Part shown: positions 36,480 through 61,718 of the stretch, in pieces | Position numbering within the stretch: the first letter of the stretch is position 1 | Layout: each line of letters begins with the position of its first letter | Source of the DNA: Marchantia polymorpha subsp. ruderalis | Taxonomy: Eukaryota > Streptophyta > Marchantiopsida > Marchantiales > Marchantiaceae | Length of the DNA stretch: 64,000 nucleotides | NCBI GenBank assembly: GCA_037833965.1 | Contig: AP031358.1 | Span: 2,860,001 to 2,924,000, forward strand | Direction of reading: 5' to 3' | The notes under the pieces: model-generated | Seen by the model: only the letters and a program-made list of their open reading frames with translations | Database searches by the model: none | What the model was told of the DNA's origin: nothing | Position numbers and translations under genes: made by a program

Positions 36480-37540
36480 TTCATTTTCAAGTGAACTTCT
36501 TACTAATCTAGAGTTATAACCATAATAAATATTGACAACGTATTTATTCATTCTCATTTTTATGATAAGTCTATCTTGTCAAATAGTTTGCTTTGATGCT
36601 TTTGCTATCGTTACACGTTCAACTTCAGTTGTAGATTGAATTACATACTTCTACAAACTAGATCTCCAACCAATGCATTCACCATCAAGTGTAAACACAT
36701 AAAAGTTGCAGATTTAGTCTTGATCAGAGTAAATCTACAGTCCCCATCAACGCAGCATAACAAGGATTTGACATTGTTTCATAAATCATCCTACAATATA
36801 CCATAATTTTTTATAATCTTCATGTATCTGAGAATCCATTTCAACTCTTTGCATCAATGCATCTTCCGTGTATTTGACATGTATCTGCTCATCTTGCTCA
36901 TTTCTAGAGCAATATTAAGCTTTGTGTATAACATCAAATACATGAGGGTGTATTAAGCTTTGTCGTAAGGTATTGTTAATATTTTTCACTTTCTTAATGA
37001 CATTGAATTGTGGAAAGTTTTAAGTGTGCTTTCAAAGGATTCCATACTCCTTTTTTGTTTACCATGTTAATAGTGTCAAGCACATATTGAACATGAACAT
37101 ATTGAAGTTATTCTTTTTTCAAGAAAAATGCATCACCATTACCATACTTTGTATAAGTATGACAATTTTCAAGAATGAATGAATTAATCATTAATCCATA
37201 TCTTGCAAGAGCTATATTAATCTGACTCATGATCTTCTAATGGTCAATTCTCGTTGATCTATACCATCTGATGTAGATACTTGAAGCTCATCAACAATTT
37301 CCTACTCTTTTAGTTTCAGCTCTTTAGAAGTTTCTACTTGTGTCATATCAATAATCAGACAATAATCAATTTTCCTCTCAATAATATACATGAGTGAAGA
37401 TTTTTTCTTGTTAGTATGGGAGCGGATCACATTTCATCTTTTTTCAATGATCTAGACTTATTGAAATAAATATCACTACTGATAATAACTTTACAAGCTA
37501 CTAGATTTCACACTTATAACTCTTCACACCATTGCCATAT
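36480..37540 (-). pseudogene. Ty1/copia remnant: integrase end, reverse transcriptase, RNase H
   Basis: The - strand holds recognisable copia pieces broken by stops and frameshifts. They occur in the expected order from high to low coordinates. First is the linker after integrase (VIISSDIYFNKS near 37420-37480). Next is the RT end near 36810-36950 (SRYMSNTRKMH, then KELKWILRYMK, as in the usual SRYMSNP...HWEAVKWILRYLKG). Last is RNase H near 36500-36700 (VFTLDGECIGWRSS, STTEVERVTIAKA). The sequence is AT-rich and clearly dead. It continues across the gypsy insertion at 61719, which shows it was the target of that insertion. Confidence 0.85.
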
Positions 37541-37828
37541 GTCATGGCTCGAGACGTTGGGTCGATTTGAGTGGAGACACGTTGAGTTCGAGTTGGAGTC
37601 GGGGAACGTTGGGAGTCGGCTAACGTTGGGCCGCGGCAGACGGGCGAGGAACGTTGGATGGAGTCGACACCTTCCAGGGATATATTCGAGGCGAGCTCGA
37701 AGAACTGTCAGTTCTTCGAGTTGAGCCTTACGCGTCGGAGTTTTTCCGTTAGCTTCGACTTTTAGTCTACCTACGAGTAGTGAGTTTGGCTTGACTCTTT
37801 GTGTATTCGTGTTTCGACACTGATTTTA
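37540..37828 (+). repeat. 5' LTR segment of the gypsy element
   Basis: This 289-bp segment recurs at 61313-61602. I count three substitutions and one small indel region between them, so the copy is fairly young. It starts TGTC at the target duplication. It holds several AACGTTGG motifs and a CGAAGAACTGTCAGTTCTTCG palindrome. After 37828 the two copies part company: the left copy runs into unique sequence, the right copy into a 111-bp terminal block. Confidence 0.85.
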
Positions 37829-40633
37829 CTCGAAGAACTCTCATATGATATAAATGCGGATTATAGTTTTCGTTTCCTTTTCGATCTTTTGGAGAGAATT
37901 TCTCATCGCGTGTGACGGGATTATGGCGTGATTATGGCGCTGTGTTGGAGTTCTTGTTCGGCTCGGTCCCCAATCGTTTGAATTTTTTTCAGACAGGCGC
38001 TGTGCGCTCTGTCGCAGGACGAGAACGTGAACCTCTGTGGAGGTTTGTTATTTCCTGTTCATGCGTTTCGTGGAAGGCGATTGACTGACTGACTGATCGA
38101 GTGTCGCCCGCTTTGCTTTGTGGAACTTGCATGCGGTTGGGTTCGGAGAGCTGCGTCGAGTTAAGAAATGGTCGGACCAGAGCACGGAATCAGCTTCCGG
38201 CGATCGTTTGATTTGACAGTCGCGAGTGGATGAAGATTGGAGGGCAGCAGAGGCGTCCAGCGAGACTGTGAATCTGCACTCTGGCTCTGAAGTGTTGGCA
38301 ACTCCAGCTCGTGTCTCGATTTTGTCAACCGGCGATTTGGTTTTGCGCGATATCCTTGCAACGGAGGAAGGTCCTCTTTTCTGTTCCTCCCGAAGCTCGA
38401 GTGTCATTCCATCTCGTAGTCAATTTAGTTTTTTTGTGGGGAAGAGGATTTGGAGCGGCTTGGTGCTGGTTTTTGAACGCTGTTGTTTCAGGGTGGAGTA
38501 GTGCTCGTACTTTAGTTTCTCTGTTGGAAGACTCCGGTTCATTGGAGGCTCAAGTTGTGTGGATCTTGGGGTTGTCTCAGTTCAGGCTTCAGGCTTGATT
38601 GAACTTGGCCGGTTTTGAAACTTCGAAGTATGGTGATGATTATTTTCTAGAAGAAAATGGAATGGTCTACATCTTGGAGATTCAGGTGAAGGTGGAAAAG
38701 CGGAAGTCGTAATGTTATAGTGTGTTGCAATAATTGTTGCAATGGTCATTGGCAAAATTCTGATCGATCAACGATAGTTCGCTCAATTGGTGTGTTCTAT
38801 TTTATCAATCGTTTCTGGTAGAAATCTGGACAATTCCTTCTGATTCTGTTTAAACGATGATATGATCACTGGGGTCGATCGTACTTGAAGCAATAACAAG
38901 TGGACTTATTCATCACTCAGCTTCCGTGGTTCGGTCCATTCGCTTCTTCACTAACCTAAACGGCTATTCGGGAGCTCTGGCTGCGTACGTATGCCTCGCG
39001 ATTGAGGCGCTGCCGGGGGCTAATCGAAGCACCGCTGCACAGGACCTTGCAGGCACGGAATGGAAAATGAATGTGCCGCGGGTCAGGCTGGATGAGAGAG
39101 CATCGGTAATCCATCTCCCTCTCGACAATTGAGGTGGCTGTTGAATCGGTGGGACATAGAAAAGGTGGAGCGACGGTATCCAGATAATGATCGAACTCAG
39201 GGACGAGTCGGCCTCCTCTTGGGGTTCGTGAATTCCATCGAGCAGAGAGAAACCGACCACTGTGTATCAGGTTTTGCGAGGTTCAAGAGTCGTATGCCGT
39301 GAAGCTTCTGGTTCTTGCCATAGCGGGAAAAGGTGGCGGAGAACGTAAAAGGAGAGAGAAGAAGGTCGAGATGTACAACTTCGATTCGTCCTCGGTTCCT
39401 CTGGAGACCGGACAGGGAGAAGGCCTGGAGCCCAAATATGATATTGGGCTTGGAGCCTGCCAGAGGTTTAGCCGTAGGTAGCCGGACCGAGCATTCTTGG
39501 TGCTGGTAGAAAGTTGAGGACCTAGTCATAGCGATCTATCACACACGAGGTTTAGATCATTCTTTAAGATCAGTACGAACCCACCTCAGCCATATTGGAG
39601 GTCAACATTGAGTGACTCCACATCAGTACCTGCCACTACACCACAGTTCGACCAGGACTGGCAGTGTTTGTGTGAATAGTCTGTGGGAGCAAAACACAGC
39701 CCCAAATCTTGTCAGTTCTCATGAGTTCAAGTCACAGGTTATGCCGAGAAACCAGCGAAGGCCGTGAGTGAGATTGGCAGGTGTGATAGTAATGGCAGCA
39801 CAGGTTTCGGCGGAGAAGATTATGGGGCATGAAGCATGTTTGGAGTGTGGCTTTTGCGCTGATCTGTTGGACGAAGGAGTGAACAAATATATGCACCAAT
39901 ATTTATCTCAATAATCAACTCTTATTGCGTTAAAAAAAAAAAAAAGAGAAAAAAAAGGGGGAAAAGAAAAGAAAAGAGAGAAAAAAAAAGTATTTTTCTG
40001 GAGAGATTGAGAATCTGCACTCGGTCTCATTTATTATGATTTTTTAGTTGTGAAAATATGTATTTATCATTATTATTTTTTTCTATGGAGAACAGTTAGG
40101 GTAGATAGGTTTTTTGTATTTGTTATATTCCTTGCCCCCTAGTTACAATGTGAAGTGGAGTTATGAGGTGAAGTACGGGGCAGCTCGGCGTGGATACACT
40201 CTTTGCGACGAGATGAACGAGATGGCGTTGCAGGCGCTGGAGATAGAAGGTGGTAGGGGGCGAAGGAGTTCGACTCGGGGTCGCGATGCGAGGCGATGTC
40301 CCGTGTGTTGTGTTGTTCTGTGCTGTGTTTCATTTCGGCTGGAGAGTCGTTGCTAGCTGTTTGCTTGTGTTTGGATCCTCTCCAGTCTGGCTTCTTGATG
40401 CGCGCCCATGTCTGGGTTGACGTTGATTTCCGGAGTAGTTTTACTCTAGTGTGCTGTCGATAGTGCGGCTGGATTTGATCACCGGCGCCTATCTTTGTTT
40501 CTCTCATGGTGAGACTGGAGTGATGACCAGTGGACCAGGAGAGTCTTCTTGCGGTGATGACAGGTTAGGTTGCCCATACCCATAGTCAGTAGGGCTAGAG
40601 CAGGTTAGTGCAGGGACGAGGGCAGGTGGAGTT
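37829..40633 (+). other. Long leader between LTR segment and gag
   Basis: About 2.8 kb precede the gag start, unusually long for a gypsy leader. Composition is mixed. A purine tract of A and G runs from 39932 to about 39990, with AT-rich sequence after it. No primer-binding site could be recognised. Small frames exist (38226-38501, 38926-39132) but show no domain. It could include the rest of a longer LTR, captured host sequence, or another small insertion. Confidence 0.4.
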
Positions 40634-42832
40634 GTGGCAGTGGTGCCGATTGGTGAGTCAGTCATCACGGAGGAGTTTGGGGGTTCCGTTGAGGACAGTG
40701 GAGGATTTACGCGGAGTGGGTTGAGGTATCGGCTACCTCATCATAGCGCATCAGTGGTTGGAGAGGCGCGGAGTGTGGCAGATATCAGATCTTTGGTGGT
40801 GATATCGTCTAGGGTCCCACACTCGTGGACAGGGGACATGGACGGTATGTACGGGGCCATGAAGGGCCCACGGCGGTACTCTGGTGCAGTGGGCACCATT
40901 GAGTTGGATGATTTCATCCAGGAGTTTGACACGTGGTGCGATATGCAGTTCTTGCGTAACCCCACGTTGTTTACACCCTTCTTTGCATGGAAGGGGTTGT
41001 TTCAGCATCTGGAGGGACCTCCCATGGATGACTACCATGAGTTTGGGAGAGAGTATGCTGTGGAGATTGACGCATGGAGGCGTCATTGGTCTCCAAACTA
41101 TACGTCGATCACCCAGGGTGGTGTTGGTACCAGTGGAGGTGCGAGTGGTAGCATCACCGATGGTACTAGTGGAGCAAGTACCACCAGCGGTGCTGTTGGC
41201 GTTGCCAGCACGAGTGGAGAGACTACTGGCGTACCTTCGTTCAGCCCCATTCCTGAGTTCTTCAAGAGGTTGAGGAAGAACTATCAGGGGGTGAGGACGG
41301 AGAAGTTGAGGAGTCTCCAAGAGTTTGAGCGGAAGACTGGTGAGAGTCTTCGGGAGGCATACACGCGTATGCGGCGGTTGATCTCAGTTACTCACGGTGT
41401 AACTGAGGCACAGGCGGTCCAGTATTGGTACAAGATACTGGACAGAGAGCTACGGCGGAGGGTTCGGGATGCTACCCTCTTGAGCGATGCGTCACCGACA
41501 TTGGCCTATGTGTTTGCTCTTTCTGAGAAGATTGAGCTTAACATAGTGGAGGAGAGAGTGGTGACTTCTTCATTCGCTAGAGACGTAGCCACTACCTCTC
41601 GTGTCCCGCAGAGCACGGCACAGTCTAGACCCTTTGGTGGTGGTAGTGGTGGGGGTCGCGGAGTGCAGACACGACACCAGACAGCCGCTAGAGATACAGG
41701 GGCACGTGCACTAGTGCCGTCGTTTGCTGGCCAGCAGCAGGGACCAGCATGTTGGACATGTGGAGGGGATCATCGGCGGAGAGATTGTCCCCAGGAGGCC
41801 GGAGGTCAGAGTTCACAGGCTAGACCCCAGTCAGCACAGGTGGTGTGTGACCACTGTGGTCGAGCAGGTCATACTCGAGATCGGTGTTTTGACCTTCATC
41901 CAGAGTTGACATCTGGTGATAGAGGTCGTGGTGGTGATGCTTCTCGAGGCCGAGGTGGCCGTGCTGGTAGAGGTGGTCGAGGTGCCGGTGTAGTTGAACG
42001 TCCTGTAGCGAGTGCTACTTCGTCCATAGAGAGCGCGATGGCTGCTCGGATTGAGCAGTTGGAGCAGAGGCTTGCTGCTATGGCGACGTCTGGGGCGAGC
42101 ACTTCCACCTCTTACGAGGAAGAGGATTTCCCTTATCTAGCGAGTGCAGCACAGGTGGAGGCATCGGTTGCGGTGACTAGAGGTGCAGCTCGAGCTTTAG
42201 AGCCACGCGGTGCGACAGGGGAGTTGGATCCTCAGAGGGGTGAGGGTGGGCGTCAGGCCAGACTTCCCCAGTCGTTTTTGCTGTCAGAGGTGGGCAGTAC
42301 TTCATCCATGAGACCTGTACCACCTAGTGGCCTTAGTGGGAGGACTGAGACATCTACGTCACGTGTGGTGGACACAGACACACCATCTAGTGCAGTGACG
42401 CGGATGGCTAGCTCAATGATGAGATCTCCATTATTTTCAGCTATGGAGCTGATGGACTCTGGGATTGACTTGGCTCGGGTTTTTCGTGCAGCAGCCACGT
42501 TGTGTGAACGTGGGAGTATCCCTGCTACGAGTGCCGACATAGGCGAGACTATTGGTGAGGAGCTATCCTCTACGACTTCATCGAGCGATGAGTCGACATG
42601 GCAGGCGGCAGCGGCACGGATGGAGTCCTTGCCAGCCCGACCAGCCATTGATCGGGAGAGGGTTGTCCCTGGTGTGTGTATGGTGGACAACCGGAGCGGG
42701 GTATTTCGCTTGGTGAGTGCTACAGGACAGGTGTATGTCCCAGCCAGAGTGTTGCTGGATTCTGGTGCACAGCCTTTGATGTTGGGCAAGATTGCCTGCA
42801 TTAGTTTGGGAGTTCGGAGGTCCGAGTTGTAG
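40634..42832 (+). CDS. Gypsy Gag-protease, 732 codons to first TAG
   Basis: A retrotransposon Gag region lies at about residues 90-320 (IELDDFIQEFDTWC; later LREAYTRMRRLI and ALSEKIELNIVEE). Two zinc knuckles follow at about 372-411. The first is CWTCGGDHRRRDC, which has only three residues between the second Cys and the His where four are usual. The second is CDHCGRAGHTRDRC, which is canonical. A Gly/Arg-rich stretch (about 430-460) and a Ser-rich linker come next. Near residue 714 is the aspartic-protease active site LLDSGAQ. The frame then meets TAG at 42830, and the same frame continues open beyond it. The protein would form the virus-like particle and its maturation protease. Start chosen as the first ATG of the open frame; the true start could be slightly different. 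Confidence 0.85.
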   Translation: MAVVPIGESVITEEFGGSVEDSGGFTRSGLRYRLPHHSASVVGEARSVADIRSLVVISSRVPHSWTGDMDGMYGAMKGPRRYSGAVGTIELDDFIQEFDTWCDMQFLRNPTLFTPFFAWKGLFQHLEGPPMDDYHEFGREYAVEIDAWRRHWSPNYTSITQGGVGTSGGASGSITDGTSGASTTSGAVGVASTSGETTGVPSFSPIPEFFKRLRKNYQGVRTEKLRSLQEFERKTGESLREAYTRMRRLISVTHGVTEAQAVQYWYKILDRELRRRVRDATLLSDASPTLAYVFALSEKIELNIVEERVVTSSFARDVATTSRVPQSTAQSRPFGGGSGGGRGVQTRHQTAARDTGARALVPSFAGQQQGPACWTCGGDHRRRDCPQEAGGQSSQARPQSAQVVCDHCGRAGHTRDRCFDLHPELTSGDRGRGGDASRGRGGRAGRGGRGAGVVERPVASATSSIESAMAARIEQLEQRLAAMATSGASTSTSYEEEDFPYLASAAQVEASVAVTRGAARALEPRGATGELDPQRGEGGRQARLPQSFLLSEVGSTSSMRPVPPSGLSGRTETSTSRVVDTDTPSSAVTRMASSMMRSPLFSAMELMDSGIDLARVFRAAATLCERGSIPATSADIGETIGEELSSTTSSSDESTWQAAAARMESLPARPAIDRERVVPGVCMVDNRSGVFRLVSATGQVYVPARVLLDSGAQPLMLGKIACISLGVRRSEL

Positions 42833-43785
42833 CCTTGTCCGTTCCAGATTCAGACATCACTCGGTGGCACCAGCGACAGGTCTTACATGATGACCAGAGA
42901 GTGCATATCAGTGCAGTTGAGGCATGGTCATGCTCAGGATAGCTCGCAGTTTGGAGTTCGAGCGGTGGTTACATCAGCAGAGTCATATGATGTGCTTCTT
43001 GGTGGAGCGGTGTTATATCCGATGGGATTTCGGATGGATTATTGGACGGAGACGGCAGCTTATCGCCCTGGTTGGGAGTCCGGTGATGGACGTATGAGTG
43101 AGCTGCCTGTGAGGTTCATTTCTCGAGATCGACCTCTTGGATCTTCTCCTGCAGTTTTAGCCTCTATTGCGGGTTTCAGTGGAGTGCTCACATGGCCTGA
43201 TGACTTGTTGGAGGGGAATAGGTCAGCCGAGGATACTCCAGTCTATGAGGAGGTGGAGGAGATGGTGAGTCTCGCAGCGGCAGTGTCATCATCTTTGGAT
43301 GTTCCACTTTGGGATTCTTGCCACGCATTACAGCATGAGGCTGATAGGTTGGTGAAGAAGGCTTGGAGTGAGGCCTCTTTACCAGCAGAGGCAGAACGAG
43401 TCTCAGATGGTCGGCTAGTATGTGGTCTTAGCACCCTATCACCATTAGTTACTACACCTATCGTATGGGAGTATTCCCCAGAGGGTGTTTGTTTGCTGGA
43501 TCTTTTTGAAGGGATCAGCACGGGTTTGGCTGCAGTGTTGCAGTCAGGTATTCTTGTACGTAGATACTTGTACGTGGAGAAGGACGAGACTGCACGTCGG
43601 GTTTCTTCACGACATGTTACACAGTTGATGTAGCGTTTTCCTTTGTTGTTGCCGCGATCAGCTGTTCGAGGATACCAGAAGGCGTTGCCTGCAGACATTT
43701 CATTGCTGGGGGCGCCAGACCTCGATCGAGTTGGACATATTGATTTGGTGATTGCGGGATGGCCATGTCAGGGGCACACATGCGC
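42833..43785 (+). pseudogene. Protease C-terminal part and N-terminal half of DNA methyltransferase
   Basis: The frame of gag continues past TAG 42830. A protease-like C-terminal part follows (YDVLLGGAVLYPMGF near 42990-43025, as in gypsy DILLG..FL). From about 43480 a cytosine-5 methyltransferase begins. Motif I reads LLDLFEGISTGLAAVL and is followed by a Y..VEKDE acceptor strand that would bind S-adenosylmethionine. A second in-frame TAG is at 43631. Motif IV with the catalytic cysteine, LVIAGWPCQGH, lies near 43749-43775. The domain is then cut by the insertion at 43791. Motif I (F-x-G-I-x-T-G) resembles DNMT3 more than MET1 or CMT. This half alone cannot be active. Confidence 0.85.
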
Positions 43786-44820
43786 TGGGCTGTGGTAACC
43801 CACTTTTTGTTTTTTGTCGGAACTAAAACATTTTTGAATAGTAAGTACCGCGGCAGCTGTAATAACCCACTAAAGGCTAAAACTGCAATATAGTGGTAGA
43901 AAGGTCGAACCCACAGGGACAGAGGAACACACAGGGTACAAAGTGTCACGTTTAACAGACTATTGATGAGTTTGAATTCTCAGGCGACTGTCACTCCCAG
44001 AAATACTGCAAGTGTCCACTCGGAGCGCACTCGGAGGTCGCACAGTGCAGCGTAACACACACACACACACACCTGAACTACAGAAATACAACCCAGAGAT
44101 CCGTTAGGACCTCTACTTCAAGATTTCAGGGGGAAAGTCTCTCGCGAGCACACTCGGCAAAGCTGCGGGCAGTGACTTCCAACTCCGGCTTTTACAACAC
44201 TTCCACTAGCTTGCTGCTAGTGTAGGAAACCCGGTTTGGACTGCCTACTTCGGATCGAAGTCACTCCTACGCGGTGAACAACACTCTCAACTCACAAAAC
44301 GCGCAGAGAACACAGGTCCGCACTGAGGGACTCGCGGTGAAACATTCCAGTAACACAACAACAGTCTATTGAAGAGTTTGAATTCTCAGGCACTTGTCAT
44401 TCCCAGAAATACTACAGGGGTTACCCTCAAGGCACCTGCTGCAGCGTAACCTGAATTTGCAACCAAGGCTTACACGAAGTAGCAAAACTTCACTTTGGCA
44501 TTCAGGGGAAAAATCCCAAGGAGTACAATCAGAAAGAAACACTCGAAGGTGTAGGGGCGAAACTGTTCAAGCATCTAACTAGTCACTGGCTCTGAGCATC
44601 GGCAGTCACCCGCAGGTGCAGATCCGAACTACTCAAGTCTCTAACCAATGTACTAGCTCTGAACATTCGGCCGAAGGCCTTCAGCTACAAAATGCGGAAC
44701 GCTAAGTTGTAACTCCTCCTGCGTGGTGACAGAACTCAAGGACACAAACACGCAAAGGAAATGGGTTCCTGATCTATACTTCTGAGTTTGGGAAAGAACC
44801 CCAGGCAAAACGCCTGGAAC

Positions 44821-44829
44821 TATTTTATA
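44821..44829 (-). promoter_or_regulatory. TATA box near the 3' end of element copy 1
   Basis: TATAAAATA on the - strand starts about 36 bases after the ORF stop and about 970 bases before the element's 3' end. A short hairpin (CCAGGC and inverse, around GTTTT) follows within 20 bases. The same arrangement occurs at 50661-50669 (+) and 53825-53833 (-). It points downstream, out of the element, as an LTR promoter would. Confidence 0.6.
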
Positions 44830-44864
44830 CCTTCTAAGTCCTACCAGCACTACACTGCACTACG

Positions 44865-47800
44865 CTACACGCCTGCACGGAACCACGCTACACTACACTC
44901 CGCGGAACCTGTACTACGTCTCCTGCGCGGCCGACTGCCGCGCACTAACTCCCTACCCTGCCAATCTTCCGCTCGACTACGCAGTCCCAAACGCTGCAAC
45001 GCCGCGGACACCTCCACTTCGAGGGCGGACATGGTATCCTGTGCCTTCGACAGAAAGGCATCGAGCTTCTTTGCTACCTTCCGCCGACTCCTACTGTCGC
45101 CTGACAACAACCCGGCTGCGCGCAATTCAAACTCATGCAGTGTGAGTTTCTCCTGCGCCTTCACTTCCCAGTGGGCGTAGCCCTTGAGACAGTGGGCGAC
45201 ACGCCTCGCCGTCTCCACCTTCGTGCGATCCGCCTCCTTCCTGCGATCCTCTTCAATTATCACTAATTGCGATTCGGCTTCAGCACGTTGCGCTCTCAAT
45301 TCGCCACACTCTGACTGTAACCTGCGGATTAACTCTTCATCCGCCTGCCGTGCGAGCTGACATTGTTCCAACAACCGCGTCTGTCGCACGAGCTCCTCTG
45401 ACAAAATCCGATTCTGGGCCTGCTCAGAAATGAGTGCTTCCTTGACCTTCACCTGCTCCTTGGTGAGCTCGTCCAGTTTCTCATCCTTCATCTTCTCGGA
45501 GTGCTTGTAGAATTTCTGATTAAGTTTGTACTGACCCCACAAGCATGCATGCTTCTCCTTCAATTCCCTCAACTCCTGGTCCACTCTAGCTAATAGCTTG
45601 CTGGTGTGGACTTTAGTGCGAGTCCGCCTGCGCACTAACTCGATGTAAGATCCCGGCTGGAGTGGGTCGGCGTATTTATCGACCTTGCGATCCAAGTACC
45701 TCAGCAACGGAATCACCTGCTCAGAGAGCGCCGCCGCCGGCGCTCCAACAATTTCCTCCTCCTCCTCCTCGGTGTCTTCTGCTCCTGACATTTCTTCCGT
45801 GGAGCCTCCGTCGTCATCATCCGAGTGGAGAATTTCAGTCGCCATTGATTGCGTCGGCGACTGCCCCGAGTGGGGCTGCACGTCATCGACGTGTGCTGCC
45901 TGCGAAGGCACGGCTGCAGCCTCGCTGCTCGTCGCCAAAATGTCTAAGGCGGAAGGCGAATGTACCCGTGCGGCATCCCCGTCGCTCGCTTGTTGGTTGT
46001 CTATCGCGTCCTCTCTGCCGCCGTCGCCCGCCGCCGAAGGCGATCGAGCGGAGGGTGGCTGCGCGGGGTTTGATTGCGCATCGCGCATCGAAATTTCATC
46101 CCGCGGACAGTCACTCCGCTCCTCCGTCTGTTGCTGCTCCCTTGATCGGTCCGTGGGGGCTGTGCCCGGCCCGTGCGCAGGCGCGATTGCCGGCGCCTTG
46201 TCCGCCGCAGGCGTAGCGCCGCGGACATCTATCGCCGAAGGCGACATGGCCGGGGGCCGCTCGCCCGATGTCCCTTGGCCTATAGGCCCTACCGCCGAAG
46301 GCGCATCTATCGGCGGACTTCCCGCCGATGATGCGGCCTCCGCACGTTCCCTGCTCGTATCTCCTCGGCTCGAAGGCCCTGGCGCCGAAGGCGCGAATTG
46401 CGGCGCGTGGTGCGCCGGAGGGTCTGGCCCCGAGGGCCGGTGTCTCGTAGGCGGTTCTTCCGCCGGCTCCTTCCCCTTCCTACGTTGGAACGGGGGTGAT
46501 TCTTGCCTGTGCACAGGCGGCACGTGTGGAGGTGTCCTGTGCACAGGCGACCTGTGCACAGGCGAGCGCCTGTGCACAGGCGGACTGCTCCTTCCCACGC
46601 GTAAGCGTAGATCCACGTCCACTTGTGATCGCCTGTCCGCGGAGGCTCGTCCGTCCGCGGAGGCTCGTCTGTGCGCAAACGGAACCTCTGTCCGCATCGC
46701 ACGTGGTAACTCCGGAGGCCCTTGGCCCGTAGGCGGCCTCTCTCCCGTCGAGGTTGCAGCGTGGCCCGTTGCTCCTGCGGTCGTCCGCGCTTCCTCATGC
46801 TTCTCTGGCGACGCACTCCCTTTCTCCGTCGCAATCGTCGCCGTGTCCGCACTGTCAGCTGGCAACACCAGTCTGCGTGCCTTCTGCTTCGGCCGGCTGT
46901 ATGGCTCGCACAGCGGCCGCGGTCGAATGGGAGCAGAGGGTTCTTGATGCTGCTCCTCTTCAGACTCTTCCCTCCATCGCCGCTTCCGCGGCACTCGTGC
47001 TGCAGGAGTGTGTCTCCCTTCGTCCCTCCGCCTTGATGGGGTAGAAGTCGGTGACTCCTCTGCATCAGTGTCGACCTCATTCTCCCGCACATACTTCCCG
47101 GGATGGTCGATGGACAATGGCGGAAAATGTTCAAGCTCCGCCGCTGTCAAACAATTCCGCTGTCGATAAAAATTGATGAGGAAAGGAGAGAGATGGTTTA
47201 GAGTTCCCCCCTTCTCCTCAAACGCGTGCTGTCGCATCACCCTGTGCAGGATGCTCGCCCAGTGAATTGGAGTTCCCTCGATGACGCACTCCACAAAAGA
47301 GACCTGCCACAATGTGATGTAGCAGGCGCGGTGCGGCTGCAGTAATTGCATCAGCGCCGCGGACAAAGTCCGGCGAAATCGATCCTTGTAATCACGGGTC
47401 CTGTACCCATTCTTGGTAGACCTCCCGGTCTTGAACAGCTCCACAAATTGCGCCTCTTCCTGCTTGGTCACCTTGATGCTCTCACTGTCGAAAAGGAGAT
47501 GCCCTGGCATGCCAGCACATCTTCCCAACGCTTGCGCCCAATCTTGGACTGTCCACCGATCAACATGCGGACGCAATCCGCGCGAGGGTGGTCCCTGTGG
47601 CTCTAGCCACTCGCGCACCATATTCGCACAGATGTAGTTCCATCCCCATAGCAAGAAATCGAGCTTTCTTGCTATTAAGCGCTCCTCGAAAGCGCGCAAC
47701 CCGTTCTGTGGTAGGCGAAGTGGTACCATCCGCAATCTGCTCGGTCTCGTCATTGCGTTCCTGGAGTTCGCTCGCCCGCTCATTCTGCTTCCGCACCGCC

Positions 47801-48005
47801 CGAGCGCCTTTCTCTCTCGGCAAACTCTAATCGCCCTCAATTCCAAATCACGCGCATTCACTTCTCCCTCAATCAACAAGAAATCTCCTGAGCGACGACG
47901 TCGAGAATGTTTAGCAGCCAGCAGATGGATGCGCGCAGCGCGCACAAGAGATTGGAATCGCGAATTCAAGAATGGGACGTTCTCCGCCGCCCGGTCGAAG
48001 GTCAT
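44865..48005 (-). CDS. Element-encoded coiled-coil protein, 1046 aa, copy 1
   Basis: One uninterrupted frame fills most of the element. The N-terminal third (about residues 95-300) looks globular and rich in Trp, Leu and Arg (DFLLWGWNYICANMVREWL, VDRWTVQDWAQALGRC). It recalls in style the plant transposon proteins annotated near retroelements, but I cannot name a domain. Residues about 310-700 are low-complexity, with Pro-Val-His-Arg, Ser-Ala-Asp and Pro-Pro-Ala units encoded by palindromic DNA repeats. An acidic cluster follows (SDDDDGG, EEEEEE). From about 790 to 1000 a long coiled coil is likely (LKEKH, EKMKDEKLDELTKEQVKVKEAL, RRLQSECGELRAQRAEAESQ). No RT, integrase, transposase DDE triad or zinc knuckle is visible. 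It could be a Gag-like or accessory protein. Confidence 0.75.
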   Translation of the reverse strand: MTFDRAAENVPFLNSRFQSLVRAARIHLLAAKHSRRRRSGDFLLIEGEVNARDLELRAIRVCRERKALGRCGSRMSGRANSRNAMTRPSRLRMVPLRLPQNGLRAFEERLIARKLDFLLWGWNYICANMVREWLEPQGPPSRGLRPHVDRWTVQDWAQALGRCAGMPGHLLFDSESIKVTKQEEAQFVELFKTGRSTKNGYRTRDYKDRFRRTLSAALMQLLQPHRACYITLWQVSFVECVIEGTPIHWASILHRVMRQHAFEEKGGTLNHLSPFLINFYRQRNCLTAAELEHFPPLSIDHPGKYVRENEVDTDAEESPTSTPSRRRDEGRHTPAARVPRKRRWREESEEEQHQEPSAPIRPRPLCEPYSRPKQKARRLVLPADSADTATIATEKGSASPEKHEEARTTAGATGHAATSTGERPPTGQGPPELPRAMRTEVPFAHRRASADGRASADRRSQVDVDLRLRVGRSSPPVHRRSPVHRSPVHRTPPHVPPVHRQESPPFQRRKGKEPAEEPPTRHRPSGPDPPAHHAPQFAPSAPGPSSRGDTSRERAEAASSAGSPPIDAPSAVGPIGQGTSGERPPAMSPSAIDVRGATPAADKAPAIAPAHGPGTAPTDRSREQQQTEERSDCPRDEISMRDAQSNPAQPPSARSPSAAGDGGREDAIDNQQASDGDAARVHSPSALDILATSSEAAAVPSQAAHVDDVQPHSGQSPTQSMATEILHSDDDDGGSTEEMSGAEDTEEEEEEIVGAPAAALSEQVIPLLRYLDRKVDKYADPLQPGSYIELVRRRTRTKVHTSKLLARVDQELRELKEKHACLWGQYKLNQKFYKHSEKMKDEKLDELTKEQVKVKEALISEQAQNRILSEELVRQTRLLEQCQLARQADEELIRRLQSECGELRAQRAEAESQLVIIEEDRRKEADRTKVETARRVAHCLKGYAHWEVKAQEKLTLHEFELRAAGLLSGDSRSRRKVAKKLDAFLSKAQDTMSALEVEVSAALQRLGLRSRAEDWQGRELVRGSRPRRRRSTGSAECSVAWFRAGV

Positions 48006-50660
48006 GGTCGGCTCTTGCTCGTGAAGAACGTCTCACTTGATGGCCGCGCCGGCTGTACGCTGGAACGGTCTTCGCTCTCACGCGCGGCTTCACGCTCCGC
48101 CGTCGTCGATTAAACTCTCACGCTCGAATCGGCGGATTTGAACTCCGCGAGCGTATTACCCCGCGGACATGGGGGCGTAGCGCCGAAGGCGAGTTTTCCG
48201 CCTTGCGCGGTACACTTGTTCGTACCGCCCCTCGGCCAATCCCCCTCTGCCTTGACGCGTGTGTCTGCATGTCGGACAAAAGTTCAACTCCTGCCTGTGC
48301 GCAGGCAGGAGCCTCGGCGGATACTCCGCCGGCACGGGACTTCATCCTCCTGTGCACAGGCGGTCGCCTGTGCGCAGGCGAATTCCGTACGCGGCGCTGC
48401 GCTGGCGCGGAAGGCGTTGACCGTGGTCAGCCGTCTCCGTCCAGTCTGTCCGTTCCTTGTCTCTTCGTCGGCGCTTCCGCCGCCGCAACTCCGTCCGTCC
48501 AAGAGCGCATCCACCCGTCCCGTCCGCATGGTCCGTACCGATTTGATTACTCTGGCGGCTCTTCCGCCGTACGCGGCGCTGCGCTGGCGCGGAAGGCGCC
48601 GTACACTTTCTACCTCACAAGGCGCATTTCTAGGGCCCAAGGCGGATTTCCCGCCGACGCCGAAGCGCCTGTGCACAGGCGAGCGCCTGTGCGTAGGCGG
48701 ACTTCGCGCCTCCCCTAACCCTACTTCGCCTGTGCACAGGCGAACGCCTTCGTCCGCGCATAGGACAAAACTTGATTCCCCCTTCCGCGTAGGCGGAATT
48801 CGCGCCGGTGGCGAACTCTTTCCGCCGTAGGCGACCGCCTCCGTTTCTTCCAATAGTGATAACTCCCTAAGTCCTCATCCGTTCCAAGCGTTCTTGGACT
48901 CGTTGGAATCAGTGCGTCGAGCTCTTTCCAACGGGACCCTAACTTGGTCAAGGCGCCCGAGGGTTGACCTAATTATGGAGGATTTCCCTACAGCCGCGGA
49001 CGCAACCTCCGAAGGCGGGTTTTGCGCCTTGCGTCGTAGGGGTCCTAACTGCAGAGCTCGCAGGGAGGGTGGTGCCTGTCCTTACTGCTGCACCCCAAAT
49101 CCCAGATTCTACAAAATCCCTCGAGAATCCCCGCGATCTTCCGGATTCACTCCGTTTTGATGTACCGAAGGCTATTTACAATGCTGCCAGGGTACAGTTT
49201 TCCAAAAATGTTTTAATTTCCTCAAAATTGCCAAAAGTGGGGTACCACAGCAGCAGCTGTAAATAGTAATCGGTACGCGAAACCAGAGTAAAAAGAGGAT
49301 CGAGGACAGTCAAGGGGTTTTGGGCTTAGGCCACAGTGGGACGCTTGGGACGGAACGGGCGGTTCATGCTGCAGGATCAGCTTCGAGCACCTTCGGCGGT
49401 AGATCACTCATAACTTTCTCAATTCGTAACGCCTTGAGTTGCTTCGGGTCTTGTTGCAAAGAGCTCGCGACGCTCGTTCTAACGAGACCAAGAACTTGTG
49501 AAACGGATGAGAGGTCACTGAGTTATGAGTGTCGGAAGTTACTGATGGGGGGGCCTTCGGCGGTAGAGCGACTTTGGCGGTACGCCTTCGGCGGAAGAAC
49601 CGCCGGAAGATGCGCCTTGGGCGGTAGACGCCTTCGGTCAACGCCTTCGGGTCAACGCCTTCGGCGATACGGGAGAGTGCATTCGGCGGAAGAGTGAAAC
49701 CCTCATAACTTTCTCAATGCGCAACGCCTCGACTTGGTTAGGGTCTCGTTGGAAAGAGCTCGACGCGCTGATTCTAACGAGCCCAATAACGAGCCCAACG
49801 AGAATTCCGGGAGTTATGAAGGTCGCAAGATACTCAGCTTTCCGCCTGCGCACAGGCGAAGAAAATTTTGTCCTATGCGCGGACGAAGGAAGTTCGCCTG
49901 TGCACAGGCGCTTCGGCGTCGGCGGGAAATCCGCCTTGGGCCCTAGAAATGCGCCTTGTGAGGTAGAAAGTGTACGGCGCCTTCTGCACCAGCTCAGCGC
50001 CGCGGACGGACAGGTCAGCGCAGCGGACGGCCAGGTCATCGCCGCGGACGGACTGTGGATAGGCGAACGCCTTCGGCGGAAGAGGAAAACCAACATAACT
50101 TTCTCAATTCTTAGCGGTTTGACTTGATTCGGGTCTCGTTGGAAAGAACTCGACGAGCTGGTTCCAACGAGACCAAGATCTATTGAAACGGATAAGGCGT
50201 CAATGAGTTATGAGCGTTGAAAGCGGCTGTCATGGTTAGGCGTGAGGCCTTCGGCGTTAACAGTTAGAGGGGCCTTCGGCCCAAGGCGGCCTGCGAGTAG
50301 GCGGCTTGCGTGTAGGACGCGTGGGACCCACAGTCCTCGGATTTTGGAGAAGGAATTTTGGCCTAGGTTGAGAGATCTTGCGGGGTCCATATCTTTGCGA
50401 TGGACGGTCGGATGGATCTGAAATTTTGTGGGGCCGTTGATCTCGGCCGGCCACGCATGCCTGCAAATTTTCAGCCTCAGATCTTGGATGGTAAGGCGCT
50501 GGCGGCTCTGTACACAGTAGGCTTAGGATTCTGATTTAGGGTTAGGGTTAGATTTAGGTTGTAAGTTAGAGGGGAAGGCAGACGCCGACTCCTCACGTGT
50601 AGGTTCTGTTGCGGCTCGCACCATGGTAGTGCAGTGTAGTGTTAGGTAGGACTTAGAAGG

Positions 50661-50669
50661 TATAAAATA
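50661..50669 (+). promoter_or_regulatory. TATA box in the shortened element
   Basis: TATAAAATA lies on the + strand, with the same CCAGGC hairpin just downstream and the same distance to the element end as in the longer copies. In this copy it drives toward the methyltransferase half at 51636. Confidence 0.55.
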
Positions 50670-51635
50670 GTTCCAGGCGTTTTGCCTGGGGTTCTTTCCC
50701 ATCAGAAGTGCAGATCAGGAACCCATTTCCTTTGCGTGTTTGTGTCCTTGAGTTCTGTCACAACGCACGAGGAGTTACAACTTAGCGTTCCGCATTTTGT
50801 AGCTGAAGGCCTTCGGCCGAATGTTCAGAGCTAGTACATTGGTTAGAGACTTGAGTAGTTCGGATCTGCACCTGCGGGTGACTGCCGATGCTCAGAGCCA
50901 GTGACTAGTTAGATACTTGAACAGTTTCGCCCCTACACCTTCGAGTGTTTCTTTCTGATTGTACTCCTTGGGATTTTTCCCCTGAATGCCAAAGTGAAGT
51001 TTTGCTACTTCGTGTAAGCCTTGGTTGTAAATTCAGGTTACGCTGCAGCAGGTGCCTTGAGGGTAACCCCTGTAGTATTTCTAGGAATGACAAGTGCCTG
51101 AGAATTCAAACTCTTCAATAGACTGTTGTTGTGTTACTGGAATGTTTCACAGTGAGTCCTTCAGTGCGGACCTGTGTTCTCTGCGCGTTTTGTGAGTTGA
51201 GAGTGTTGTTCACCGCGTAGGAGTGACTTCGATCCGAAGTAGGCAGTCCAAACCGGGTTTCCTACACTAGCAGCAAGCTAGTGGAAGTGTTGTAAAAGCC
51301 GGAGTTGGAAGTCACTGCCCGCAGCTTTGCCGAGTGTGCTCGCGAGAGACTTTCCCCCTGAAATCTTGAAGTAGAGGTCCTAACGGATCTCTGGGTTGTA
51401 TTTCTGTAGTTTCAGGTGTGTGTGTGTGTGTGTTACGCTGCACTGTGCGACCTCCGAGTGCGCTCCGAGTGGACACTTGCAGTATTTCTGGGAGTGACAG
51501 TCGCCTGAGAATTCAAACTCATCAATAGTCTGTTAAACGTTACACTTTGTACCCTGTGTGTTCCTCTGTCCCTGTGGATTCGACCTTTCTACCACTATAT
51601 TGCAGTTTTAGCCTTTAGTGGGTTATTACATGGGC

Positions 51636-52858
51636 ATGGAGCAGGGTTACATGACCCGAGATCTCGGATGTTTTGGGAGATGCTACGAGTGTTACGTCAT
51701 CTCCAGGAGCAGCAGACACGTTCTCCCGCATACATTCTAGAGAACGTACCATTGTTGGGTGACACTCGGGCCCAGTTGATGGCGAGTGTCCATGAGGTCA
51801 GGGCATGGATTGGATCAGCTGTGTTGTTGGATGCTGCGAGGGTTGGTTCACGTGCTCATCGTGCACGTTTGTGGTGGACCAACCTTGTACCACGAGAGAT
51901 ATTGCGTCATGCGTATGATTCTGTGCATCGTGATCCTACCCTCACCGTTGACAGGATCTTGGATGTCTCTCGATACTCTCAGGTGGTGAGAGTGGCGGAT
52001 AGGTCACCCATGGCATTGGTGAACCACGTAGGTCAGCCTCGGATGGCTTTGCCTACGCTGGTCAGTTATCCGGCATCACATGCATATCGTGATGGGGGAC
52101 CTGGACTACTGTGGGACAGTGTTCTACATCAGTTGGTGGAGCCCAACGCTGATGAGAGAGAGCGTGCGATGGGATTTCTTACTGGTGTGACCGCGGCTTC
52201 TTCAGTTTCAGAGGCATCGCGTCGTCAGGTTTTGGGTCAGGCTATGGACTTGAACTGCTTGACATGGATTGTGAGCTTGGGTTTGGCCGAGCAACGCCGT
52301 TTGCGCGCAGATTTGGTGGTTGTTACACCACTTATTAGCTCATTGCCTACCGGGACGGTAGTGGCAATGGCTGGGGGCGATCTGCGAGATATTCGTCATC
52401 CTTGGAGTTCATGGGACGTGACGAGAGTAGACGCCCATGCAGTTGGAGATGTTGGTCACGGGGAGGTTGCTACGAAGGAGGGTACAGAGAACCCTCCTTT
52501 GGAGGAGGTGTCATAGCAACCAGTGACAGTATCGCCTCCCTCTTGTGGCTCCATGGAGGAGGAGTGGGAGCCATCGATTGGTTCTCAGATCACCGGAGGA
52601 GAGAGGCGACGGTTGATACAATTCCTACGTGACTATAGGAGTTGTTTTGCCTTCAGTATGAAGGAGTTGGGTACTTTGATTGGACCCGGCATACGGATAG
52701 AGTTGGCTAGTGATACGCCAATCTTCCGTCGTCCCTATCGATATAGTGATATGGAAAGGGACTTGATTAAGAGTCGGACGTTGGAGTTATTGGAGGCTGG
52801 GTTAGTGGAGTTGTCGCATGGTGAGTATGCTTCAGCCACTGTTATGCCAGCGAAGAAG
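51636..52858 (+). pseudogene. C-terminal half of DNA methyltransferase and start of reverse transcriptase
   Basis: With the inserted element and one TGGGC removed, this continues the upstream frame exactly. It carries motif VI (ILENVPLLG, near 51735-51757), motif VIII (SRAHRARLWWTN, near 51846-51882; DNMT3 has AAHRAR here), and motifs IX-X (ERERAMGF near 52152-52176; RRQVLGQAM near 52220-52246). All key catalytic signatures of a C5 methyltransferase are present and in the unpermuted order, which argues against DRM. A third in-frame TAG is at 52514. The RT N-terminal part follows (RPYRYSDMERDLIKSRTLELLEAGL), up to the insertion point after AKK. It is broken and not functional in this copy. Confidence 0.85.
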
Positions 52859-55800
52859 TGTAATAACCCACTAAAGGCTAAAACTGCAATATAGTGGTAG
52901 AAAGGTCGAACCCACAGGGACAGAGGAACACACAGGGTACAAAGTGTCACGTTTTAACAGACTATTGAGGAGTTTGAATTCTCAGGCAACTGTCACTCCC
53001 AGAAATACTGCAAGTGTCCACTCGGAGCGCACTCGGAGGTCGCAAAGTGCAGCGTAACACACACACACACACACACCTGAAACTACAGAAACACAACCCA
53101 GAGATCCGTTAGGACCTCTACTTCAAGATTTCAGGGGGAAAGTCTCTCACGAGCACACTCGGCAAAGCTGCGGGCAGTGACTCCCAACTCCGGCTTTTAC
53201 AACACTTCCACTAGCTTGCTGCTAGTGTAGGAAACCCGGTTTGGACTGCCTACTTCGGATCGAAGTCACTCCTACGCGGTGAACAACACTCTCAACTCAC
53301 AAAACGCGCAGAGAACACAGGTCCGCACTGAAGGACTCACTGTGAAACATTCCAGTAACACAACAACAGTCTATTGAAGAGTTTGAATTCTCAGGCACTT
53401 GTCATTCCCAGAAATACTACAGGGGTTACCCTCAAGGCACCTGCTGCAGCGTAACCTGAATTTACAACCAAGGCTTACACGAAGTAGCAAAACTTCACTT
53501 TGGCATTCAGGGGAAAAATCCCAAGGGAGTACAATCAGAAAGAAACACTCGAAGGTGTAGGGGCGAAACTGTTCAAGTATCTAACTAGTCACTGGCTCTG
53601 AGCATCGGCAGTCACCCGCAGGTGCAGATCCGAACTACTCAAGTCTCTAACCAATGTACTAGCTTTGAACATTCGGCCGAAGGCCTTCAGCTACAAAATG
53701 CGGAACGCTAAGTTGTAACTCCTCGTGCGTGGTGACAGAACTCAAGGACACAAACACGCAAAGGAAATGGGTTCCTGATCTGCACTTCTGATGGGAAAGA
53801 ACCCCAGGCAAAACGCCTGGAACTATTTTATACCTTCTAAGTCCTACCTAGCACTACACTGCACTACGCTACACGCCTGCACGGAACCACGCTACACTAC
53901 ACTCCGCGGAACCTGTACTACGTCTCCTGCGCGGTCGACTGCCGCGCACTAACTCCCTACCCTGCCACTCTTCCGCTCGACTACGCAGTCCCAACCGCTG
54001 CAAAGCCGCGGACACCTCCCCCTCGAGGGCGGACATGGTATCCTGTGCCTTCGACAGAAAGGCCTCGAGCTTCTTTGCTACCTTCCGCCGACTCCTACTG
54101 TCGCCTGACAACAACCCGGCTGCGCGCAATTCAAACTCACGCAGTGTGAGTTTCTCCTGCGCCTTCACTTCCCAGTGGGCGTAGCCCTTGAGACAGTGGG
54201 CGACTCGCCTCGCCGTCTCCACCTTCGTGCGATCCGCCTCCTTCCTGCGATCCTCTTCAATCGTCACTAATTGCGATTCGGCTTCAGCACGTTGCGCTCT
54301 CAATTCGCCACACTCTGACTGCAAACTGCGGATTAATTCTTCATCCGCCTGCCGTGCGAGCTGACATTGTTCCAACAACCGCGTCTGTCGCACGAGCTCC
54401 TCTGACAAAATCCGATTCTGGGCCTGCTCAGAGTTGAGTGCTTCCTTGACCTTCACCTGCTCCTTGGTGAGCTCGCCCAGTTTCTCATCCTTCATCTTCT
54501 CGGAGTGCTTGTAGAATTTCTGATTAAGCTTGTACTGACCCCACAAGCACTCATGCTTCTCCTTCAAGTCCCTCAACTCCTGGTCCACTCTAGCTAATAG
54601 CTTGCTGGTGTGGACTTTAGTGCGAGTCCGCCTGCGCACTAACTCGATGTAAGATCCCGGCTGGAGTGGGTCGGCGTATTTATCGACCTTGCGATCCAAG
54701 TACCGCAGCAACGGAATCACCTGCTCAGAGAGCGCCGCCGCCGGCGCTCCAACAATTTCCTCCTCCTCCTCCTCGGTGTCTTCTGCTCCTGACATTTCTT
54801 CCGTGGAGCCTCCGTCATCATCATCCGAGTGGAGAATTTCAGTCGCCATTGATTGTGTCGGCGACTGCCCCGAGTGGGGCTGCACGTCCTCGACGTGTGC
54901 TGCCTGCGAAGGCACGGCTGCAGCCTCGCTGCTCGTCGCCAGAATGTCTAAGGCGGAAGGCGAATGTATCCGAGCGGCATCCCCGTCGCTCGCTGGTTGA
55001 TTGCATACCGCATTCTCTCTGTCGCCGTCGTCCGTCGCCGAAGGCGATTGAGCGGAGGGTGGCTGCGCGGGGTTGGATTGCGCATCGCGCATCGAGATTT
55101 CATCCCGCGGACAGTCACTCCGCTCCTCCGTCTGCTGCTCCCTTGGTCGGTCCGTGGGGGCTGTGCTCGGCCCGTGCGCAGGCGCATTTGCCGGCGCCTT
55201 GTCCGCCGCAGGCGTAGCGCCGCGGACATCTATCGCCGAAGGCGACATGGCCGGGGGCCGCACGCCCGATGTTCCTTGGCCTATAGGCCCTACCGCCGAA
55301 GGCGCATCTATCGGCGTACTTCCCGCCGATGGTGCGGCCTCCGCACGCTCTCTGCTCGTATCTCCTCGGCTCGAAGGCCCTGGCGCCGAAGGCGCAAATT
55401 GCGGCGCGTGGTGCGCCGGTGGGTCTGGCCCCGAGGGCCGGTGTCTCGTAGGCGGTTCTTCCGCCGGCTCCTTCCCCTTCCTACGTTGGAACGGGGGTGA
55501 TTCTTGCCTGTGCACAGGCGGCACGTGCGGAGGTGTTCTGTGCACAGGTGACCTGTGCACAGGCGAGCGCCTGTGCACAGGCGGACTGCTCCTTCCCACG
55601 CGTAAGCGTAGATCCACGTCCACTTGTGTTCGCCGGTCCGCGGAGGCTCGTCCGTCCGCGGAGGTTCGCCTGTGCGCAAACGGAACATCTGTCCGCATCG
55701 CACGTGGTAACTCCGGAGGCCCTTGGCCCGTAGGCGGCCTCTCTCCCGACGAGGTTGCAGCGTGGCCCGTCGCTCCTGCGGTCGTCCGCGCTTCCTCTCG

Positions 55801-58251: not shown

Positions 58252-58256
58252 AGAAG

Positions 58257-61040: not shown

Positions 61041-61199
61041 CTTGATCTTCACATGTTATGAATTGCAGATAGGCGACTAACGATGGGGCGACATAGCACC
61101 CGGCCTACTGGTTCGCGCACCCACGAAGGTGCATAGCATGTAGTTGTAGATAGGGCTACCTGAAAGTCAGAGGGACCTGACCGCCAGTTAGGGGGGCGA

Positions 61200-61310
61200 G
61201 TTGTGATACCTTTGTGTGTGGACACTCTCGTTCCTTGTGTATGTATGTGTGAGTTGTGAGTAGAGCATGTCAGCGATGTATGATGTATGGCGATACTGAG
61301 TCGCACGACA
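61200..61310 (+). repeat. 111-bp block after a polypurine tract, repeated at 61603-61713
   Basis: The block follows GGGGGGCGAG (61191-61200), which looks like a polypurine tract. It begins TTGTGATACC and ends CGCACGACA. It is joined by GC to the TGTC that starts the 289-bp LTR segment. The same block forms the true 3' end of the element at 61603-61713. The joint GACA-GC-TGTC resembles an LTR-LTR junction. Confidence 0.8.
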
Positions 61311-61312
61311 GC

Positions 61313-61713
61313 TGTCATGGCTCGAGACGTTGGGTCGATTTGAGTGGAGACACGTTGAGTTCGAGTTGGAGTCGGGGAACGTTGGGAGTCGGCTAACGTT
61401 GGGCCGCGGCAGACGGGCGAGGAACGTTGGATGGAGTCGACACCTTCTAGGGATATATTCGAGGCGAGCTCGAAGAACTGTCAGTTCTTCGAGTTGAGCC
61501 TTACGCGTCGGGGTTTTTCCCCTTAGCTTCGACTTTTAGTCTACCTACGAGTAGTGAGTTTGGCTCGACTCTTTGTGTATTCGTGTTTCGACACTGATTT
61601 TAGTTGTGATACCTTTGTGTGTGGACACTCTCGTTCCTTGTGTATGTATGTGTGAGTTGTGAGTAGAGCATGTCAGCGATGTATGATGTATGGCGATACT
61701 GAGTCGCACGACA
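61313..61713 (+). repeat. 3' LTR of the gypsy element, 401 bp
   Basis: TGTC...GACA ends abut the target duplication on the right. It consists of the 290-bp segment shared with the left end and the 111-bp block. Because integration made the target duplication next to TGTC at the left and GACA at the right, these are the genuine integrated ends. Confidence 0.8.
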
Positions 61714-61718
61714 CATAT

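Follow-up and report, generated by a model that had tools for sequence, protein, structure and literature searches.

The kind of element described here is already known. KnitGypsy-Dnmt3, a Gypsy element with a DNMT3 domain from the charophyte alga Klebsormidium nitens, was reported in 2018 (PMC5890265), and a 2025 paper states that some DNMT3 genes are embedded in retroelements of streptophytes and dinoflagellates (PMC12344493). The latter names long terminal repeat (LTR) Copia and DIRS as the DNMT3 retroelement families, while the 2018 paper that it cites has a Gypsy element in K. nitens. Here we analyzed a 64,000-nucleotide stretch of the liverwort Marchantia polymorpha subsp. ruderalis (GenBank assembly GCA_037833965.1, contig AP031358.1, positions 2,860,001 to 2,924,000, forward strand; hereafter the window). 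It contains a single Ty3/gypsy retroelement copy at 37540-61713 on the plus strand, between CATA target-site duplications, in which a DNMT3-like methyltransferase ends the gag-protease open reading frame (ORF).

The identity and anatomy of the element, as described below, are to us practically certain. The evidence is drawn from sequence: the domains and their order, the stop context, a self-primer, the repeat order, the ends with their target-site duplication and the spread of the family. The coding order of the window copy is gag, protease, methyltransferase, reverse transcriptase (RT), RNase H, integrase and a C-terminal PHD finger. The RT-RNase H-rve integrase order by which Ty3/gypsy elements are recognized was present in the Pfam matches of the window ORFs, and gag matched at E 0.012 only, short of its cut-off. 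The coding features and what interrupts them are as follows.

40838-52516, plus strand: ORF1, gag-protease-methyltransferase, broken by TAG 42830, TAG 43631 and insertion 1; stop TAG at 52514
43481-43785, plus strand: methyltransferase, left part with motifs I and IV and the in-frame TAG 43631
43502-43525, plus strand: motif I, LFEGISTG
43757-43771, plus strand: motif IV, GWPCQ
43791-51630, no strand: insertion 1, 7.84 kb, interrupting the methyltransferase; target-site duplication TGGGC at 43786-43790 and 51631-51635
51632-52513, plus strand: methyltransferase, right part with motifs VI, VIII, IX and X, and the ORF1 C-terminus
51740-51748, plus strand: motif VI, ENV
51851-51883, plus strand: motif VIII, RAHRARLWWTN
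52157-52177, plus strand: RERAMGF
52232-52249, plus strand: LGQAMD
52514-52522, plus strand: ORF1 stop TAG CAA CCA, in the UAG-CAR-YYA (putatively leaky) context
52517-61040, plus strand: ORF2, RT-RNase H-integrase-PHD, in frame with ORF1 and interrupted by insertion 2
52859-58251, no strand: insertion 2, interrupting RT; target-site duplication AGAAG; related to insertion 1
58251-59327, plus strand: RT and RNase H (RVT_1 4.4e-34, RT_RNaseH 2.5e-35)
59769-60278, plus strand: integrase (H2C2 1.1e-15, rve 4.2e-10)
60888-61022, plus strand: PHD finger at the end of ORF2 (PF00628 1.8e-10)

An earlier note on this DNA, made from its letters, had placed motifs I, IV, VI, VIII and IX-X of a cytosine methyltransferase between protease and RT, and we located them there in that order. 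The domain METHYLTRANSFERASE thus carries motifs I, IV, VI, VIII, IX and X unpermuted. In a search of the PDB at E≤1, 26 of the 27 sequences matched by the right half were DNMT3A/B/C (best 8.1e-5), the remaining one being a PilZ protein at 0.87. A profile built from six family domains matched 57 PDB sequences with an E of 10 or below, with DNMT3A leading at 9.5e-22; lower matches included a 4onj chain named 'DNA methyltransferase' (1e-9), which we take to be DRM, as well as DRM2 (5.7e-7) and HhaI (1.5e-6), and none of the 57 was named DNMT1 or CMT. An AlphaFold2 model from six rows was of moderate quality (pLDDT 64.8, pTM 0.68); Foldseek returned 98 matches to it at E≤0.001, and the best 50 listed were all DNMT3 chains, with TM-scores on the query of only 0.50-0.56. 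Since the PDB matches, the unpermuted order and the Foldseek matches agree, the methyltransferase is DNMT3-like by sequence, motif order and fold. The DRM class, which the earlier note had also set aside, is rejected because its permuted motif order differs from the I-IV-VI-VIII-IX-X found here, and the family profile searched against the PDB lent no support to DRM, CMT or MET1. That note had seen DNMT3 in the motif wording, which agrees with the PDB matches, but LFEGISTG owes its E to a change found in the window copy alone; P0121, P0122, P0124 and P0061 (proteins from our searches) have LFGG. The C5 methyltransferase profile that it proposed as a check matched five of the six family domains (PF00145; the first at 38 bits, cut-off 22), but in the window the right half alone stayed below threshold (E 0.044, 13.7 bits, same cut-off) and the left methyltransferase ORF alone had no Pfam match.

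Many other copies with the methyltransferase were found in the protein searches, making the domain a family trait and ruling out a one-off insertion of a host gene, the outcome by which the earlier note would have been refuted. At least 18 M. polymorpha entries, and then four more, contain the gene in whole or in part (one locus may be named twice by different annotation sets), as does one entry of M. paleacea. Proteins of M. polymorpha are the nearest among the matches listed; one of them, P0122 (Mp_4g09160), is 96% identical to the window in gag (664 aa), 95% from protease to motif I, 98% in the motif IV piece and 98% in the right half. The main protein search scored 8000 candidates, and the best 120 of 1798 matches were listed; sources among the matches listed also include Calypogeia fissa (P0005, P0128), Sphagnum fallax, S. 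troendelagicum, K. nitens, two Closterium strains, Volvox reticuliferus, Tetrabaena socialis and metagenomic proteins. P0005 is 82% identical in RT-integrase. No host DNMT3 was recognized among the matches listed. The methyltransferase profile was matched by 44 of the best 120 proteins; 36 had both methyltransferase and RT, the methyltransferase preceding RT in 13 and standing between RNase H and integrase in 23.

The catalytic site is mostly conserved. We aligned 71 rows of the 80 matched and counted those with a letter at each position: the catalytic Cys was present in 62/65 rows, the motif VI Glu in 66/70 and the motif VIII Arg in 64/67. P0081, P0106 (Volvox) and P0091 (Tetrabaena), the exceptions at the catalytic Cys, lack the motif VI Glu as well, with the domain still in place; this degenerate domain may have another role. 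Motif IV reads GWECQ for GWPCQ in 18/65 rows (P0057, P0107, P0045 and others), an unusual catalytic loop. Among seven Marchantia ORF1 proteins, mean identity was highest in the methyltransferase (93.8%), followed by protease (90.0%) and gag (86.6%). Several M. polymorpha entries (P0042, P0061, P0085, P0121-P0127) have been given host-gene annotations, 'DNA methyltransferase' in some cases, yet are retroelement ORFs, and such annotation could mislead counts of plant methyltransferases.

The methyltransferase most likely does not run on into RT. P0122, of 1278 aa, starts and ends where ORF1 of the window does; the TAG at 52514 is the exact C-terminal end of P0121, P0122 and P0126, and P0123 and P0129 end two residues before it (P0123, P0126 and P0129 are labeled 'partial'). 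The UAG-CAR-YYA context of this codon is rare, being found at 3 of the 683 TAG on the plus strand of the window, and UAG followed by CAR YYA is the readthrough consensus of tobacco mosaic virus (PMC2754532). A scan of genome contigs yielded five loci, four of them from Streptomyces; we used the fifth, L013 (CADCWO010000201.1, 1-9285, 9285 bp), whose record is filed under a Synechococcales metagenome-assembled genome and which is probably a mis-binned eukaryotic element from a green alga. Its contig ends share 127 nt, so that L013 is a 9158-bp assembly circle. A scan of viral contigs gave 12 loci of weak and short similarity. L013 has gag-protease-methyltransferase, then TAG CAA TCA, then RT-RNase H-integrase-PHD in frame, with both ORFs open; its identity to the window pieces is 48-57% in the methyltransferase, 65% from RT to PHD and 24% in gag, and its ORF2 is 93% identical to P0004, of a cluster of 226 sequences. 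TAG 52514 is thus most likely the real end of ORF1, which separates the methyltransferase from RT, and a leaky stop between ORF1 and ORF2 is likely. The earlier note had put the methyltransferase inside one polyprotein, in one frame from gag to pol: it does lie within the Ty3/gypsy element, and the codon phase is equal across the TGGGC insertion, but it belongs to the Gag-protease ORF with probably its own stop before RT, and TAGs at 42830, 43631 and 52514 stand in frame.

Trees of both domains bear on the capture history. A rooted RT tree of 37 rows (P0047, most ORF2-only rows, P0113, P0042, P0096, P0055, P0065 and P0060 were left out) placed the methyltransferase-bearing elements and their ORF2 relatives in one clade of 34 rows, at 100/100 against three outgroup rows. 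The 17 RT-first rows form a clade within it, also at 100/100, and its outermost row, P0072, is methyltransferase-first. The earlier note had raised the charophyte elements (de Mendoza et al. 2018) as possible kin, and this was borne out: they are of the same kind (PMC5890265), and P0054 of K. nitens lies in the 34-row clade, where its finer position was not settled. In a quick RT tree of 57 rows, the wider clade holds 51 rows at 99 and P0054 adjoins the RT-first clade; P0047, which has no methyltransferase match, stands among the RT-first rows, a possible loss of the domain. The rows without a methyltransferase match are mostly ORF2 proteins and hence give no evidence that the domain is absent. 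In an unrooted tree of the methyltransferase, made from 49 rows after L013 had been added and 23 rows that were near-duplicate, broken or long had been removed, one branch separates the two placements (100/99). The outgroup row P0109 has a PHD finger and no methyltransferase match, which hints that the PHD finger was in the element before the methyltransferase.

Two other accounts of the gene layout were weighed against this evidence. The reading of TAG 52514 as a third nonsense mutation, in an element that encodes one Gag-Pol polyprotein, is favored by the gene models P0124, P0127 and P0061, which continue from the methyltransferase into RT past the ORF1 stop position, and by metagenomic P0025, P0045 and P0015, which do likewise; the Marchantia models, we infer, bypass the stop through a predicted intron. 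The proteins that stop at the TAG or two residues before it, and the TAG of the same rare context at the same domain border in the otherwise open L013, make the single polyprotein highly improbable. For the history of the domain, the trees suggest one old capture and one move as the simplest reading. Two captures, one before RT and one between RNase H and integrase, would also give the single-branch split of the unrooted tree, but the rooted RT tree nests the RT-first group within the methyltransferase-bearing clade behind a methyltransferase-first outermost row, and we hold two captures to be possible without expecting it. The K. nitens case was described as an independent acquisition in that lineage (PMC5890265); with P0054 within the wider clade, the capture probably dates further back.

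The noncoding parts of the element contain two repeats, A and B, in an unusual order, together with putative control signals.

37536-37539, no strand: 5' copy of the target-site duplication CATA; boundary fixed from repeat A
37540-37828, plus strand: repeat A1, begins TGTC; 98.3% over 290 columns to 61313-61602
37681-37686, plus strand: putative TATA box TATATT, 29 bp before 37710
37710-37720, plus strand: predicted transcript 5' end and self-primer AGTTCTTCGAG, perfect complement of 37829-37839
37829-37839, plus strand: predicted primer binding site CTCGAAGAACT, directly behind A1
61186-61199, plus strand: putative polypurine tract AGTTAGGGGGGCGA, directly before B1
61200-61310, plus strand: repeat B1, identical to B2
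61307-61316, no strand: B1/A2 junction palindrome GACAGCTGTC, GACA-GC-TGTC; single occurrence in the 64-kb window
61313-61602, plus strand: repeat A2
61603-61713, plus strand: repeat B2, ends GACA
61714-61717, no strand: 3' copy of the target-site duplication CATA

The order A-body-B-A-B is DIRS-like; the copy starts with A and finishes with B, its ends are TG...CA, and the A2/B2 border is a clean LTR-LTR joint (TTTTA/GTTG). The complement of CTCGAAGAACT occurs outside A1 only in A2 within the window. An 11-nt complement within 289 nt was found at 94 of 63,580 window positions, not rare enough by itself, and the weight of the self-primer rests on the binding site abutting the repeat and on TATATT 29 bp before 37710. 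RNA folded from 37710 forms a 12-bp helix of its 5' end with the binding site (z -3.14, 0/200 shuffles as good), and Tf1 RNA is known to prime itself with its first 11 bases (PMC7175516). By sequence and fold, and with a predicted transcript start, the element very probably primes itself as Tf1 does. With the binding site abutting A1, the polypurine tract abutting B1, and the TATA box and self-primer in A, the LTR reads as B-GC-A, and the genomic ends of the copy are then the inside of this B-A LTR, at the palindromic B/A junction. L013 has a 13-nt self-primer complement (7239/7415), the sole complement of ≥10 nt found in its noncoding part, with a TATA 29 bp upstream of the self-primer (fold z -3.53, 2/200 shuffles as good), and a polypurine tract CTAGGGGGGGCA about 100 nt before its palindrome. 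The junction palindrome lies within a 17-mer pattern common to the window and L013, and arose in 9/5000 shuffles of the L013 noncoding part.

From these features we propose the following cycle. In working copies, ORF1 would give Gag-protease-methyltransferase, and readthrough of the leaky UAG would let some ribosomes into RT-RNase H-integrase-PHD, so that the methyltransferase would be made in Gag amounts and be present in the particle. Transcription would start 29 bp behind the TATA box in repeat A, and the first 11 nt of the transcript would fold onto the binding site behind A1 and prime reverse transcription in the manner of Tf1. The complementary DNA (cDNA), with B-A LTRs, may acquire methyl groups from the DNMT3-like domain, most likely on CG sites and no later than integration. 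A two-LTR circle may form from its joined ends, and the DDE integrase, possibly guided by the PHD finger, could cut this circle at the palindrome where B meets A. If the cut falls at that junction in the 5' LTR, the product would be A-body-B-A-B, ending in TG...CA and flanked by a 4-bp duplication; a cut at the other junction would yield A-B-A-body-B, which should be dead because it lacks a 3' R region. We think it fairly likely that this account as a whole is the best explanation of the element and its cycle. For methylation of the element's own cDNA by its methyltransferase the chances seem even, and for integration by cutting at the junction slightly below that. More doubtful is the full conjecture of an undescribed cycle, in which self-primed B-A-LTR cDNA is joined at its ends, a PHD-bearing DDE integrase opens the circle at the intra-LTR palindrome, and DNMT3, supplied at the level of Gag, labels the circle by methylation as DNA like that of the host; if true, it would explain DIRS-like split repeats in an element without a tyrosine recombinase. 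The control layout may explain how the whole element group copies itself.

Several results weigh against the proposed cycle. The 4-bp duplication is known from one copy only; the L013 noncoding part lists six palindromes of ≥10 nt, the junction palindrome being one of them; and L013, as an assembly circle, cannot show A-B-A-B. The loss of catalytic residues in P0106, P0091 and P0081 implies that activity is dispensable in some lineages. The K. nitens domain produced no methylation in yeast, a result weakened by the like failure of human DNMT3B in that test (PMC5890265); in favor of CG methylation, the DNMT3 of SymbioDIRS does methylate CG in yeast (PMC5890265). CpG observed/expected ratios were 0.69-0.79 in the coding parts, 1.05-1.08 in the insertions, and 0.98 and 1.13 in the noncoding parts of the element, a pattern without a clear deamination footprint. 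A route as in DIRS elements, in which both ends are copied from internal B1-A2 and the element inserts as a unit circle, would suit the repeat order, which the K. nitens element is likewise reported to have (PMC5890265, Fig. 4 legend), but the seven window ORFs have an rve integrase and no Pfam match to a tyrosine recombinase family, and the copy has TG...CA ends and a 4-bp flanking duplication; we consider it rather unlikely. An ordinary LTR element with LTR A-B, of which A1 and B1 are rearrangement products in the window copy, would explain why A2-B2 opens with TG and closes with CA as LTRs do, and is very unlikely given that the binding site adjoins A1 and the polypurine tract B1, that in L013 the order is the same, the palindrome being flanked by the polypurine tract and the binding site, and that a like description exists for the K. 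nitens element (PMC5890265). As for the enzyme, a service to the host or to other elements, not to the element's own cDNA, accords with the host benefit discussed in PMC5890265; its fusion to Gag-protease and its conservation within the element family speak for the element's own use, and we regard host service as unlikely.

The window copy itself is dead. Its lesions are TAG 42830, TAG 43631, both insertions, an Asn in place of the first catalytic Asp of the integrase (59994-60023) and four residues missing after TDQGTEFQ. The insertion at 52859-58251, which splits RT, adds to the picture given by the earlier note. By phase arithmetic on the separate halves, codon phase is unchanged across the target duplications of both insertions. 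The two insertions are mutually related, have TGT...ACA ends and 5-bp target-site duplications, and each has a minus-strand ORF, of 1055 aa in insertion 1 and 1054 aa in insertion 2, with zero Pfam matches up to E 0.05. Insertion 1 also has inverted arms of ~0.93 kb (43858-44785 and 50702-51630), 99% complementary, starting 67 nt inside its left end. The PHD finger of ORF2 is closest to those of CHD4, PHF12, DPF2/3, PHF21A and KDM5B. Several such PHD fingers read unmethylated H3K4, as does the ADD domain of DNMT3. Elsewhere in the window, two minus-strand genes at 4825-6276 and 29800-32058 are, judged by eye from their motifs, presumably host-type genes for an F-box/kelch-like protein and an ankyrin-repeat membrane protein.

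Retroelements equipped with the host's own silencing enzyme had so far been described in dinoflagellates and in a charophyte, and the same lineage now appears in liverworts and Sphagnum. Marchantia is a land plant that can be manipulated, which makes self-methylation, integration targeting and host silencing testable. From the junction, the self-primer and the putative leaky stop one can build a specific cycle, with predictions open to checking, for what had been an unexplained oddity, DIRS-like repeats in a gypsy element. In the literature searched, we found no account of such elements in land plants, of a methyltransferase placed in ORF1 before a leaky-stop context, of the PHD finger, or of self-priming combined with a palindromic junction; 'PHD' and 'Marchantia' do not occur in the text of PMC5890265, nor 'PHD' and 'methyltransferase' in the main text of the chromovirus survey PMC6317226.

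The closest known system is KnitGypsy-Dnmt3, also a Gypsy element, with an unpermuted DNMT3 domain, A-coding-B-A-B repeats (PMC5890265) and, through P0054, a place in the RT clade of the window element's group. Its domain was reported in the Pol ORF (PMC5890265), whereas that of the window element ends the gag-protease ORF1, so the latter is not a plain member of KnitGypsy-Dnmt3. SymbioDIRS-Dnmt3 and SymbioLINE-Dnmt of dinoflagellates are also retroelements with a cytosine methyltransferase, but they are tyrosine-recombinase or LINE elements reported to be unrelated to the gypsy ones (PMC5890265), and the tyrosine recombinase that marks DIRS is absent from the Pfam matches given above. In Tf1/sushi elements, as here, the first 11 nt of the transcript complement the binding site (PMC7175516), while split repeats, methyltransferase and PHD finger are on the side of the window element. 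Chromoviruses likewise carry a chromatin reader, assumed to target integration (PMC6317226); their chromodomain was unmatched in the window (Pfam to E 0.05), and a PHD finger ends the integrase ORF instead. Finally, the UAG CAR YYA context is that of the tobamovirus-type leaky stop (PMC2754532), which in the window element, judging from sequence, stands between Gag-protease-methyltransferase and RT-integrase.

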